Shown here: positions 5,418 through 7,998 of the stretch, piece by piece
Position numbering within the stretch: the stretch's first letter is position 1
Layout of the letters: each line of letters starts with the position of its first letter
Assembly: GCF_014636495.1 (NCBI RefSeq)
Contig: NZ_BMEM01000001.1
Coordinates: 1,177,773 to 1,241,772 of the forward strand
Direction of reading: 5' to 3'
Length of the DNA: 64,000 nucleotides
Source: Ornithinimicrobium tianjinense
GTDB lineage: Bacteria > Actinomycetota > Actinomycetes > Actinomycetales > Dermatophilaceae
The notes under the pieces: model-generated
What the model was told of the DNA's origin: nothing
The model's input: only the letters and a program-made list of their open reading frames with translations
Database searches by the model: none
Program-made: the position numbers and the translations under genes

Positions 5418-5819
5418 ATGGGTGTCGAGTCCAAGCTCTTCGGCTTCCTCGTCCCGTTCTTCGTCGTCGTGGCGGTGATCTACGCCTTCGCCACCGACTT
5501 CAACGAGTGGGTCGGGATCGTCGGCCTGAGCCTGACCGCGGCCATGTGCGCCTTCGTCGCCTGGTTCTTCTGGCTCTCGGGCCGCAACGTGGACGCCCGC
5601 CCCGAGGACGACCTCGAGGGTGAGATCGCCGACCAGGCCGGTGACTACGGTCACTTCGCCCCGCACTCCTGGTGGCCGCTGTGGCTCGGCCTGTCGACCT
5701 CGATCCTGGTGCTCGGCGTCGGCGTGGGCTGGTGGCTGGTCGTGGTTGCCCTGCCGTTCGTGCTGATCTCCGTCCTCGGCTGGACCTTCGAGTTCTTCCG
5801 CGGCGAGAAGCCCATCTGA
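5418..5819 (+). CDS. ctaF: Cytochrome c oxidase subunit IV (actinobacterial CtaF)
   Basis: Small integral subunit of the actinobacterial aa3 oxidase, part of the bc1-aa3 supercomplex. It has 133 residues and four hydrophobic segments: about residues 7-25, 31-51, 85-103 and 104-122. The acidic loop around residues 58-75 (DDLEGEIADQ) is characteristic. The gene starts 3 nt after the ctaD stop and is followed by a terminator-like hairpin, so it ends the operon. Confidence 0.92.
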   Translation: MGVESKLFGFLVPFFVVVAVIYAFATDFNEWVGIVGLSLTAAMCAFVAWFFWLSGRNVDARPEDDLEGEIADQAGDYGHFAPHSWWPLWLGLSTSILVLGVGVGWWLVVVALPFVLISVLGWTFEFFRGEKPI

Positions 5820-5838
5820 CTCTTCCTCACCGACAGCA

Positions 5839-5873
5839 CGACCCCCGGTACCGCTTCAGCGGGCCGGGGGTCG
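5839..5873 (+). terminator. Nested stem-loop after ctaF
   Basis: CGACCCCCGG at 5839-5848 pairs perfectly with CCGGGGGTCG at 5864-5873. Inside the loop, CCGC at 5851 pairs with GCGG at 5859 around TTCA, making a two-tier hairpin. It begins 20 nt after the ctaF stop. There is no U-tract, which is usual for actinobacterial terminators. Confidence 0.7.
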
Positions 5874-5904
5874 ACGCATTCAGCCCATATCTACCCCTCT
5901 CAAC

Positions 5905-6335
5905 GACCGGACAGGCGTTAGTGCCGCTCCGGTCGTGGGTGCGAGTGACCGGACAGGCGTTAGTGCCGCTCTCGTCGGGGGGTGCGAGTGACCGGACAGG
6001 CGTTAGTGCCGCTCCGGTCGTGGGTGCGAGTGACCGGACAGGCGTTAGTGCCGCTCTCGTCGGGCGGGCCTAGGGCAGGACCGGGCAAGACGGCCGGTTG
6101 GTCGGGGCATGGAGCGGCACTACGGCCTGTCCGGTCGGGGGTGCCAGCGGCACTACGGCCTGTCCGGTCGTGGGAGGGAGCCGAGGGGTGGCAGTAACGC
6201 CTGTCCGGTCGGGGGGGAGCGAGCCGAGGTGCGGCACTAACGCCTGTCCGGTCGGGGAGGAAGCCGAGGGGTGGCACTAACGCCTGTCCGGTCGGGGGGA
6301 GGGCGCCCAGGGGCGGCACTAACGCCTGTCCGGTC
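5905..6335. repeat. Array of ten 24-bp repeats, four direct then six inverted
   Basis: The gap between convergent ctaF and trpD holds ten copies of a 24-bp unit with core GGACAGGCGTTAGTGCC. Plus-orientation copies start at 5905, 5947, 5990 and 6032, a 42/43/42-bp period. Reverse-complement copies start at 6113, 6146, 6187, 6230, 6270 and 6312. Copies 5 and 6 are a variant subtype with GGCCGTAGTGCC; copy 7 has one further change. Spacers on the left alternate between two sequences, giving an 85-bp higher-order dimer; right-hand spacers are G-rich. Copies 1 and 3 are followed directly by CCGGTC, complementary to their own GACCGG start. No convincing gene lies in this stretch: its short open frames merely echo the repeat. 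Confidence 0.9.
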
Positions 6336-6355
6336 GGAGGGTGGGGTGGGCTCGG

Positions 6356-7459
6356 TCAGGCCTGAGGGAGGGCCTGGCTGCTGGCGACCCAACGCTCGAC
6401 GAGCCGCTGCGCAGAGCCGTCGTCGAGGACTGCCGCGGCACGGTCCATCCCGGCCCGGACCGCGGCGTGCAGCGACGCCTCGTCCGCGGGGTGCTGGCCG
6501 GCCTCGCCGGAGGCCAGGAGCGCCAGCGCGGCGCCGGCGTTGAGCAGGACCGCGTCGCGCACGGCCCCGGTGGAGCCCGCGAAGAGCTGACGGGCCACGT
6601 CGGCGTTGTGCTCGGCGTCGCCGCCGCGCAGCGCGTCGACCGGGTGGAGCTCCAGGCCCAGTCGGCGGGGGTCGAGCGTCCACGCCTGGATCGCGCCCGT
6701 CCCGTCGCCCCACCAGACCTGGCTCGTGGTGGCAGGGGTGATCTCGTCCAGGCCGTCGTCGCCCCGGAAGACCAACGCGCGGGTGCCCCGCGCGGCGAAG
6801 ACGCCGGCGATGAGCGGAGCCATCCGGGCATCGGCCGAGCCGACCACGGCATACCGGGGCTGGGCGGGGTTGGTCAGGGGACCGAGGAAGTTGAACGCCG
6901 TCGCGATGCCGATGTCGCGACGCACGACGGAGGCGTGCCGCATCGAGGGATGGAAGACGTTGGCGAAGGCGAAGGTGATGCCGACCTCGCGGGCGAGCCC
7001 GGCCACTTGCTCCGGCGAGAGGTCCAGCCTGACCCCGAGCGCCTCAAGCATGTCGGCGGACCCGGAGCGGCTGGAGGAGGCGCGGTTGCCGTGCTTGACC
7101 ACGACCGCCCCGGCCGCCGCCATCACGATGGCGGACATCGAGGAGATGTTGACCGTCATCGCGCGGTCACCGCCGGTGCCGACGATGTCGATCGTGGGGC
7201 CGTCCACGGTGAAGCGTCGCGCGTGCTCGAGCATCATGCCCGCGAGCCCGGACATCTCCTCGACCGTCTCTCCCTTGCTGCGCAATGCCGTCAGGAACGA
7301 GGCCAGCTGGGCGGGGCTCGCCTCTCCGGACATCACCCGGTCCATGGCCCATGCGGCCTGGGCCGAGTCCAGGTCCTCGCCCTGGATGAGGGAGGTGATC
7401 AGGTCTGGCCAGGTGTAACCGGCGTCGTTGCCGGGAAGGGGCGTCGGCTCGCCGCTCAC
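6356..7459 (-). CDS. trpD: Anthranilate phosphoribosyltransferase
   Basis: Second step of tryptophan synthesis: joins anthranilate and PRPP to phosphoribosylanthranilate. It has 367 residues. Family signatures are VGTGGDRAMTVNISSMSA, the KHGNRASSSRSGSADMLEALG anthranilate/PRPP loop, FAFANVFHPSMRH, and FNFLGPLTNPA. The GTG start at 7459 overlaps the stop of the upstream receiver gene by four bases (GTGA), indicating translational coupling. The N-terminal ~20 residues before WPDLI are a short variable extension. Its 3' end lies 20 bp from the last copy of the repeat array. It is separate from other trp genes here, as in M. tuberculosis, where trpD also sits by ctaE. Confidence 0.95.
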   Translation of the reverse strand: MSGEPTPLPGNDAGYTWPDLITSLIQGEDLDSAQAAWAMDRVMSGEASPAQLASFLTALRSKGETVEEMSGLAGMMLEHARRFTVDGPTIDIVGTGGDRAMTVNISSMSAIVMAAAGAVVVKHGNRASSSRSGSADMLEALGVRLDLSPEQVAGLAREVGITFAFANVFHPSMRHASVVRRDIGIATAFNFLGPLTNPAQPRYAVVGSADARMAPLIAGVFAARGTRALVFRGDDGLDEITPATTSQVWWGDGTGAIQAWTLDPRRLGLELHPVDALRGGDAEHNADVARQLFAGSTGAVRDAVLLNAGAALALLASGEAGQHPADEASLHAAVRAGMDRAAAVLDDGSAQRLVERWVASSQALPQA

Positions 7460-7902
7460 CGGCGCACGAGGTCGACGACCGCGGCGGAGAGCCGCTGCGG
7501 GTCCAGCGGGCGCGGGACCGCAGCGTCCGCCAGCGACCAGGTCGCCAGCCAGCCGTCGACCGGCCGTCCCGTCAGCAGGACGACGGGCGGGCAGTCGAAG
7601 ATCTCGTTCTTGAGCTCGCGGCACACGCCCATGCCGCCGTAGGGCTGGGCCTCGCCGTCCAGGACGAGGACGTCGAAGTCCTCCTCGCGTACCGCGGACA
7701 GCACCGCGGCCGGGGTGGCGCACTCGTGCCAGCGGGTGACGTGCACGTCCGCCGCGGGCTGGTCGCCCACGCTCAGCCGGACGCTGTCTCGCACTGCGGC
7801 GTCGTTGCTGTACAGCAGGACAGAGATGTCCTGGGCGGCGCGTCCGGCGACGTTCGCGGTCTCGGGCGTGGGGCCGTCGTGGAGGTCCTGGGTCGCGGTC
7901 AT
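7456..7902 (-). CDS. Degenerate response-regulator receiver domain protein
   Basis: A stand-alone ~120-residue receiver fold with no output domain (148 residues in all). The strand ISVLLYSND and the phospho-acceptor-like Asp in DVLVLDGEA are present, followed by a PPVVLLTGR strand with Thr. The conserved Lys of the last loop is replaced: PRPLDPQRL stands where KPxxP is expected. Phosphorylation signalling may therefore be weak or absent. I chose the ATG at 7902 because TACCAT (7915-7910 on this strand) precedes it by 7 nt, fitting a leaderless transcript. The gene is translationally coupled to trpD and divergent from ctaE, so a link to respiration or tryptophan control is possible but unproven. 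Confidence 0.7.
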   Translation of the reverse strand: MTATQDLHDGPTPETANVAGRAAQDISVLLYSNDAAVRDSVRLSVGDQPAADVHVTRWHECATPAAVLSAVREEDFDVLVLDGEAQPYGGMGVCRELKNEIFDCPPVVLLTGRPVDGWLATWSLADAAVPRPLDPQRLSAAVVDLVRR

Positions 7903-7992
7903 GCGCACGATGGTATTCCAGTCGCGGACGCACCAGACGACCGCGTGGCGCGCCGCGTCGGGGAGGGGCGCGCCTCCGGGCTCTCCATGGGC

Positions 7993-7998
7993 CATAAT
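7993..7998 (+). promoter_or_regulatory. -10 element (CATAAT) for leaderless ctaE
   Basis: CATAAT ends 6 nt before the GTG at 8005, so transcription would start at or beside the start codon. No Shine-Dalgarno sequence is present. The same geometry recurs before ten other genes in the window. Confidence 0.6.

Follow-up and report, generated by a model that had tools for sequence, protein, structure and literature searches.

Gene-end arrays of a 22-bp repeat in Ornithinimicrobium look like a fast-evolving set of putative protein-binding sites

An inverted repeat array between ctaF and a trpD-like gene

The window analyzed here is a 64,000-nucleotide stretch of the Ornithinimicrobium tianjinense genome, in which the convergent genes ctaF and a trpD-like gene are separated by an array of short repeats (Table 1). 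Within 5909-6331 the array holds ten copies of GGACAGGCGTTAGTGCC with at most two mismatches, four on the plus strand and six on the minus strand, whereas shuffled versions of the window yielded a mean of 0.23 matches and a maximum of 2. A preliminary description of the locus had reported a ten-copy inverted array with regular spacings in its left half and a duplicated 85-bp dimer, and all three features were recovered; the two parts of the dimer, 5905-5982 and 5990-6067, are 99% identical. The description had also distinguished two sequence subtypes, but the core has three, carrying GTTAGT, GTTACT, or CGTAGT at six variable bases. The array does lie between the 3′ ends of the two genes, as proposed, but not exactly in the center: the gap between ctaF and the first copy measures 86 bp and contains a strong hairpin, compared with a gap of 21 bp between the trpD-like gene and the last copy.

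Table 1 Features of the window around the array
Feature	Position	Strand	Remarks
ctaF, cytochrome c oxidase subunit IV	5418..5819	+	Cyt_c_ox_IV, PF12270; 3′ end towards array
Hairpin between ctaF stop and array	about 5836-5877	+	z -5.55
Left half-array, four direct units of ACCGGACAGGCGTTAGTGCC	5905..6060	+	42/43/42 bp apart; sense to ctaF
GGACAGGCGTTAGTGCC plus-strand copies	5909, 5951, 5994, 6036	+	
Right half-array, six units	6112..6336	-	33/41/43/40/42 bp apart; sense to trpD
GGACAGGCGTTAGTGCC minus-strand copies	6116, 6149, 6190, 6233, 6273, 6315	-	
trpD-like gene	6356..7459	-	Glycos_transf_3; stop 21 bp from array

In O. cerasi and O. pekingense, whose CtaF proteins are 81% and 74% identical to that of O. 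tianjinense, ctaF is followed by a symmetric hairpin and by no array. The array between ctaF and trpD therefore looks like an addition specific to its lineage.

The repeat forms a genome-wide family of arrays

Across the O. tianjinense genome, the true repeat unit is ACCGGACAGGC-N6-GCC, most often repeated head to tail every 22 bp; the 42-bp spacing of the window is a minority form. In a logo of 264 units, ACCGGACAGGC is nearly constant and is followed mostly by G-T-T-M-S-T-GCC, with a variable center. Allowing up to three mismatches, the pattern matched 129 + 129 times on the two strands of the 3.31-Mb genome, against 9 + 10 matches for a reversed control, and exact copies numbered 120 + 103 = 223, against none for the reversed control. 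The preliminary description had pictured a chromosomal element and had named a single occurrence as the outcome that would speak against it; copies are many across the genome, so that this outcome did not arise and a genome-wide element is supported.

We examined the arrangement of the copies in 34 stretches around copies among the matches listed, together with the window, which cover 203 of the 223 exact copies; isolated one-mismatch copies within genes were left out of the array counts. Six of these 203 copies fall within called coding sequence, some perhaps through over-long gene calls. The sample contains at least 38 sites, 35 with two or more copies and three with a single copy. Plus-strand copies are followed by minus-strand copies at 22 of the 35 multi-copy sites, and the remaining 13 run in one orientation only, so the inverted layout, previously taken as the essence of the element, is not general. 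Neighboring copies were oriented ++ in 104 cases, -- in 82, +- in 25, and -+ in 7. Same-strand neighbors less than 100 bp apart were spaced by 22 bp in 107 of 193 pairs, and 22 bp was the modal spacing in 30 of 53 half-arrays; in the remaining 23 the mode ranged from 21 to 42. The suggestion of strict helical phasing was dropped, as its statistics were marginal (p about 0.04-0.06).

No Rfam family scored above its gathering threshold (best hit 19.5 bits, cut-off 59.5), and the element matched no plasmids, phages, or viral contigs. No earlier description was found in the literature searched, a search with most subscription papers outside its reach. Several contigs of the O. tianjinense assembly (G000) end in or near arrays (C1:72-223, C3:379562-379624, and C5:217878-217922; loci L031, L055, and L060), and runs of N lie inside the arrays of L033 and L061. 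Arrays thus seem to break the assembly, and the true number of units may be higher.

Half-arrays follow genes and mostly point with them

Gene positions were taken from a simple gene finder rather than a curated annotation. Where it missed a gene, as with the receiver gene at 7456-7995, a sense half-array may be wrongly counted as an exception, or an exception as sense. On these calls, convergent junctions hold 16 of the sampled sites, tandem ones 17, and divergent ones three; the other two sites are at contig edges. As had been anticipated, arrays are enriched at convergent junctions, which account for 16 of 36 classed sites but for 63 of all 379 junctions in those stretches (odds ratio 5.0, p 3e-5). 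The expectation that arrays would lie mostly between convergent genes did not hold.

Most half-arrays are oriented in the sense direction of the nearest upstream gene, in O. tianjinense as well as in two congeners with related arrays, G113 and G132 (introduced below), and sense half-arrays tend to begin close to the gene end (Table 2). In some cases the stop codon itself merges with the first unit, TGA running into GACCGG. The orientation exceptions are in part real. In O. tianjinense, 16 of 67 half-arrays, or 58 of 251 classed copies, are directed at a 5′ end, and tandem junctions often keep a two-sided pair, one half of which points towards the 5′ end of the next gene. Most genes have no array.

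Table 2 Half-arrays in three species, relative to called genes
Measure	O. tianjinense	G113	G132
Sense to nearest upstream gene, of those classed	51/67 (3/70 unclassed)	32/40	22/30 (2/32 unclassed)
Sense halves starting at most 35 bp from a gene boundary	39/51	21/32	14/22
Antisense halves starting at most 35 bp from a gene boundary	5/16	2/8	1/8
Median distance from gene end to first unit, sense halves (bp)	12	13	-1
Median distance, halves not classed as sense (bp)	76	42	308
Halves at distance -1 (TGA running into GACCGG)	8	3	13
Halves with called frame ending inside a unit	2	4	
Sense halves more than 100 bp from gene end	5/51	8/32	8/22
Candidate DnaA-box cap	2/70	24/40	0/32
Median RNA fold z (halves folded)	-1.44 (37)	-1.50 (15)	-0.13 (5)

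Congeners carry dialects of the same word

The exact O. tianjinense word occurs 0-2 times in each of 185 other genomes of the family, and its exact 22-bp tandem had no match in broad collections of genome and viral contigs, from which the O. tianjinense genome itself may be excluded. The view of the repeat as a species-restricted curiosity was nevertheless overturned by a three-mismatch search and by a comparison of pepN ends. At least nine congeners carry dialects of the word (ACCGGACGCGC, ACCGGACGGTC, ACAGGACACGC), likewise in 22-bp arrays. With three mismatches allowed, the search gave 115 matches in G113, where the word reads ACCGGACGCGCGTTCSTGMC, and 26 in G132, where it reads ACCGGACGGTCG; none of the other 183 family genomes had more than 16.

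Tandems of MGGACRSGC at 22 bp reached at least seven matches in nine of the 31 genomes of the genus (O. tianjinense, G108, G109, G113, G124, G126, G133, G134, and G135), and adding G132 brings the genomes with arrays of this type to 10 of 31; among 155 other family genomes, 19 had one to three matches. The reversed control for this pattern also fits units of the CGGACAGGC and CGCACAGGA types, so it is not valid for O. tianjinense (64 + 38) and is doubtful for G126 (16 + 11), G108 (4 + 3), G134 (7 + 1), and G109 (0 + 3). Across 396 genomes of the order, a sample with one other member of the genus, O. tianjinense alone stood out for ACCGGAC tandems (60 + 56), followed by G193 with four matches in an 11-bp simple repeat. 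Tandem Repeats Finder (TRF) found no recurrent family in 200 kb each of G116 and G124, a weak negative given that G124 proved to have a sparse dialect. In G124 a small form consists of inverted units between convergent genes (L175, 5904-5964; L180, 18481-18517), whose distances to the two stops are 0/0 bp and 4/18 bp; it is nearly palindromic and may represent an early stage.

The 3′ region of pepN (Peptidase_M1) was compared in 28 of the 31 genomes of the genus, O. tianjinense included; G122 and G129 (paralog or fragments) and G130 (fragments) were dropped. Direct 9-mer repeats within 200 bp of the pepN stop exceeded all 200 two-base-block shuffles in 14 of the 28, and G133 had an excess of inverted 9-mer repeats only. 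Units of the GGAC type stand at the pepN end in O. tianjinense, G113, G132, G135, G124, G126, G134, G108, and G109, and other words do so in G119, G123, G127, G110, and G112. In a separate branch of the genus (G112, G110, and G111; L216, L218, and L219), a AGGGAGGTTTCGTACACCC-like repeat recurs about 33 bp apart soon after the stop. Direct repeats of still other words lie 3′ of the stop in G123, G119, and G127 (L195, L197, and L212), which suggests that gene-end arrays extend beyond the GGAC type.

A tree of pepN, a single gene with 16 of 25 inner branches well supported, placed O. tianjinense and G132 as sisters (95/90), G113 with G135 and G124 (99/97), and G126, G108, G133, G109, and G134 in one group (98/91); species poor in the GGAC type fall between these array-bearing groups. 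Some array positions are shared between species, in counts that are biased upward because the stretches of all three genomes were picked for holding copies. Of 11 O. tianjinense array genes with an ortholog in the sampled G132 stretches, five have a G132-dialect array at the same stop there; of six with an ortholog in those of G113, two do in the G113 dialect, pepN and a NUDIX gene; the remaining orthologs (six of 11 and four of six) have no array within 60 bp. In the G113 NUDIX gene, the called frame passes through one unit and stops at its internal TGA, after which a DnaA box follows. At another O. tianjinense site (L058, 585-749), an upstream NUDIX gene ends in TAG, and the bases directly after it, GCGCAACGGCC, agree with the 3′ portion of the units that come next, which have the unusual center GCAACG; these bases resemble a first unit cut short at the stop.

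The core is constant, and candidate DnaA boxes stand in register in G113

Conservation within arrays was assessed in 28 O. tianjinense chains, each with three or more 22-bp units in register (145 units in all, 12 of them recognized by register alone). Per-site differences between adjacent units, decayed ones included, came to 0.13 in the 11-bp core, 0.26 in the six bases after it, 0.15 in GCC, and 0.33 in the two-base linker. Between the consensus sequences of the chains, the corresponding values are 0.00, 0.25, 0.02, and 0.58, a constancy that is partly built in because the chains were found by their core. In 13 G113 chains (52 units, four by register), adjacent units differ by 0.05, 0.10, 0.08, and 0.27. 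The lower variability of the core relative to its neighboring bases argues for the core as the part that is recognized.

G113 offers a further regularity. Of 45 matches to T[TC]NTCCACA in its stretches, 36 lie near a core, and of the 35 with a core upstream on the same strand, 34 are exactly 22 bp from it and the remaining one 44 bp, so that they occupy the position of a further unit. More than half of the G113 half-arrays end in such a candidate DnaA box, its distance from the start of the final unit being exactly 22 bp; few or none do so in the other two species (Table 2). The E. coli consensus DnaA box is given as TTATCCACA, and DnaA has been described as a roadblock to RNA polymerase (PMC11317965).

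Transcripts of single half-arrays fold weakly

The preliminary description had offered, as an alternative, that complementary halves would let read-through RNA fold into long hairpins. Within halves this failed: sense RNA of the window halves, in 150-nt pieces, folded no better than shuffles (z -0.59 and +2.06), and medians were weak in all three species (Table 2), compared with z -6.0 to -7.3 for the ctaF hairpins of relatives. In O. tianjinense, 10 of 37 half-arrays did fall below -2, down to -6.5. For the joined halves of a two-sided array the idea held (z -19), which concerns two-sided arrays only. No T-tract terminator lies in 5700-6500 of the window, and membership among intrinsic terminators fails for want of a stable hairpin with a T-tract in the window halves. 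Given the weak half-array folds, an RNA hairpin per unit is not favored as the main agent. G108-type units contain a possible hairpin, and the inner GGC/GCC pairing of the O. tianjinense unit is not kept in the G113 dialect.

A proposed polar protein roadblock and its rivals

Overall, the arrays look like a fast-evolving set of putative protein-binding sites that stop transcription at gene ends, and the earlier suggestion of many sites bound by a protein is probably right, with the sites acting at those ends. Each half-array would be a row of asymmetric recognition sites (ACCGGACAGGC in O. tianjinense, and ACCGGACGCGC, ACCGGACGGTC, or ACAGGACACGC in congeners) placed after a stop codon and pointing in the direction of the gene. 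These sites would be coated by a sequence-specific DNA-binding protein, sometimes together with DnaA at an in-register box, and would then halt or slow RNA polymerase coming from that gene; two convergent genes would thus each have a one-way barrier of their own. The species dialects would have arisen as site and protein co-evolved. The asymmetric core, its direction towards the oncoming polymerase, the tandem copies, the weak RNA folds, and the in-register DnaA boxes together point to such a polar barrier; we infer the binding protein, the blocking of polymerase, and the co-evolution from these patterns. That half-arrays serve as a stoperator-like polar roadblock at gene 3′ ends is a reading we hold tentatively, as a real possibility that falls somewhat short of probable. 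Its fuller version, in which roadblock terminators built of tandem 22-bp sites have a co-evolving binder, are coupled to DnaA in at least one species, and have had their word rewritten between species at some orthologous gene ends, is more doubtful.

Several observations count against a roadblock. Nearly a quarter of O. tianjinense half-arrays (16 of 67) face a 5′ end, a share of the sense halves in all three species starts more than 100 bp from the gene end, most genes and many orthologs lack an array, DnaA-box caps are rare outside G113, some half-arrays fold below z -2, G108-type units may form a hairpin, and the constancy of the core is affected by the core-based search. Moreover, ctaF retains its hairpin, which would make its half-array redundant. 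Short intergenic repeats are common but usually come without a rule that hints at function; here several rules coincide, namely a strong direction bias, arrays that begin at the stop codon, a register of 22 bp common to the species, a core that switches by species at some orthologous sites, and, in one species, an in-register DnaA box. Two questions thereby become directly testable: can a protein roadblock, rather than Rho or an RNA hairpin, mark the end of a bacterial gene, and how does an entire family of binding sites come to change its word in concert?

The main rival is a functionless intergenic repeat that spreads by itself or expands by slippage, is best tolerated after stop codons, and is homogenized by recombination. 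Local expansion with near-identical units, the frequent absence of arrays at orthologous gene ends (including that of the ctaF/trpD array from O. cerasi and O. pekingense), and the occurrence of antisense halves all fit it. However, neutral drift would not be expected to spare the core while the next six bases and the linker change (the core-search bias applies here too), nor to produce a gene-direction bias of 51:16, 32:8, and 22:8 in three species, and self-spreading finds neither a REP-type Y1 transposase in O. tianjinense nor a phage or plasmid match; we consider this account somewhat unlikely. An element acting at the RNA level, in which the sense transcript is bound by Rho or another RNA-binding protein or folds as a terminator or exonuclease block, would explain the sense orientation and the start at the stop codon. 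It gains from the C-rich flanks of the unit, the very long hairpins of two-sided arrays, the well-folding minority of halves, the G108-type hairpin, and the inverted units between convergent stops in G124, but the low half-array medians, the missing T-tract terminator, and the loss of the inner GGC/GCC pairing in G113 make it unlikely.

Two further possibilities draw on other chromosomal functions. The word might serve in DNA uptake or self-recognition, as in Neisseriaceae, gathered in permissive 3′ regions: its dialects follow the tree and share a sub-core, and inverted pairs at gene ends are also described for the DNA uptake sequences (DUS) of that family, which likewise form species dialects of one short word (PMC3630211). 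The same source puts DUS at about 2,200-5,900 copies per genome, with intragenic ones common (PMC3630211), whereas our repeat numbers a few hundred, clustered and almost all intergenic (223 exact copies, six of the 203 sampled in called coding sequence). It thus fails to match DUS in copy number, and we regard this function as very improbable. The arrays could also be linked to replication, titrating an initiator or DnaA. Plasmid iteron arrays look like 22-bp direct repeats with DnaA boxes, which is what G113 shows in 24 of its 40 half-arrays. This reading does not explain why dozens of arrays should follow stop codons and the direction of genes, and with the caps so scarce in O. tianjinense and G132 it is the most remote of those considered.

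Likeness to known repeat systems

MIRU of mycobacteria are direct repeats at stop codons, oriented with transcription, with longer units and inside operons; the present arrays share the position, repetition, and orientation. REP and BIME are small extragenic repeats at gene 3′ ends, arranged in inverted pairs; REPs are palindromic with a tetranucleotide tag and, where known, come with a Y1 transposase. The arrays resemble them in size, location, and inverted pairing, but a REP/RAYT assignment was rejected: the core is asymmetric, the bases where GTAG sometimes occurs vary in the 264-unit logo, and no Y1 transposase (Y1_Tnp, PF01797) was found in the O. tianjinense genome, in a search whose positive control detected it in five of 14 named genomes.

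The stoperators of cluster A mycobacteriophages are described as 13-bp asymmetric sites in short intergenic spaces, bound by a known repressor; they run in the direction of transcription and do not work when turned around (PMC9283540). Our unit is likewise asymmetric and oriented with transcription, as a bias with exceptions (51/67, 32/40, and 22/30), but it forms chromosomal tandem arrays with a putative binder, unlike the phage sites.

Its form places the element among the interspersed intergenic direct repeats, of which STAR is an example. STAR elements of staphylococci are described as direct repeats, short and GC-rich, that form small arrays between genes at many loci, varying in number and location between species and having no known function, with a 14-bp motif, T(G/A/T)TGTTG(G/T)GGCCC(C/A), and 40-44 bp spacers (PMC3532100). 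The present element is similarly made of short GC-rich direct repeats with a conserved motif, in many small intergenic arrays that differ between species. It is not STAR proper, whose 14-bp consensus does not fit the logo of the O. tianjinense units, and it differs in its mostly 22-bp units and in a core that changes by species. Whereas the STAR description in PMC3532100 mentions neither orientation nor stop codons, the arrays here are mostly sense, start near the stop, and in one species are capped by DnaA boxes.
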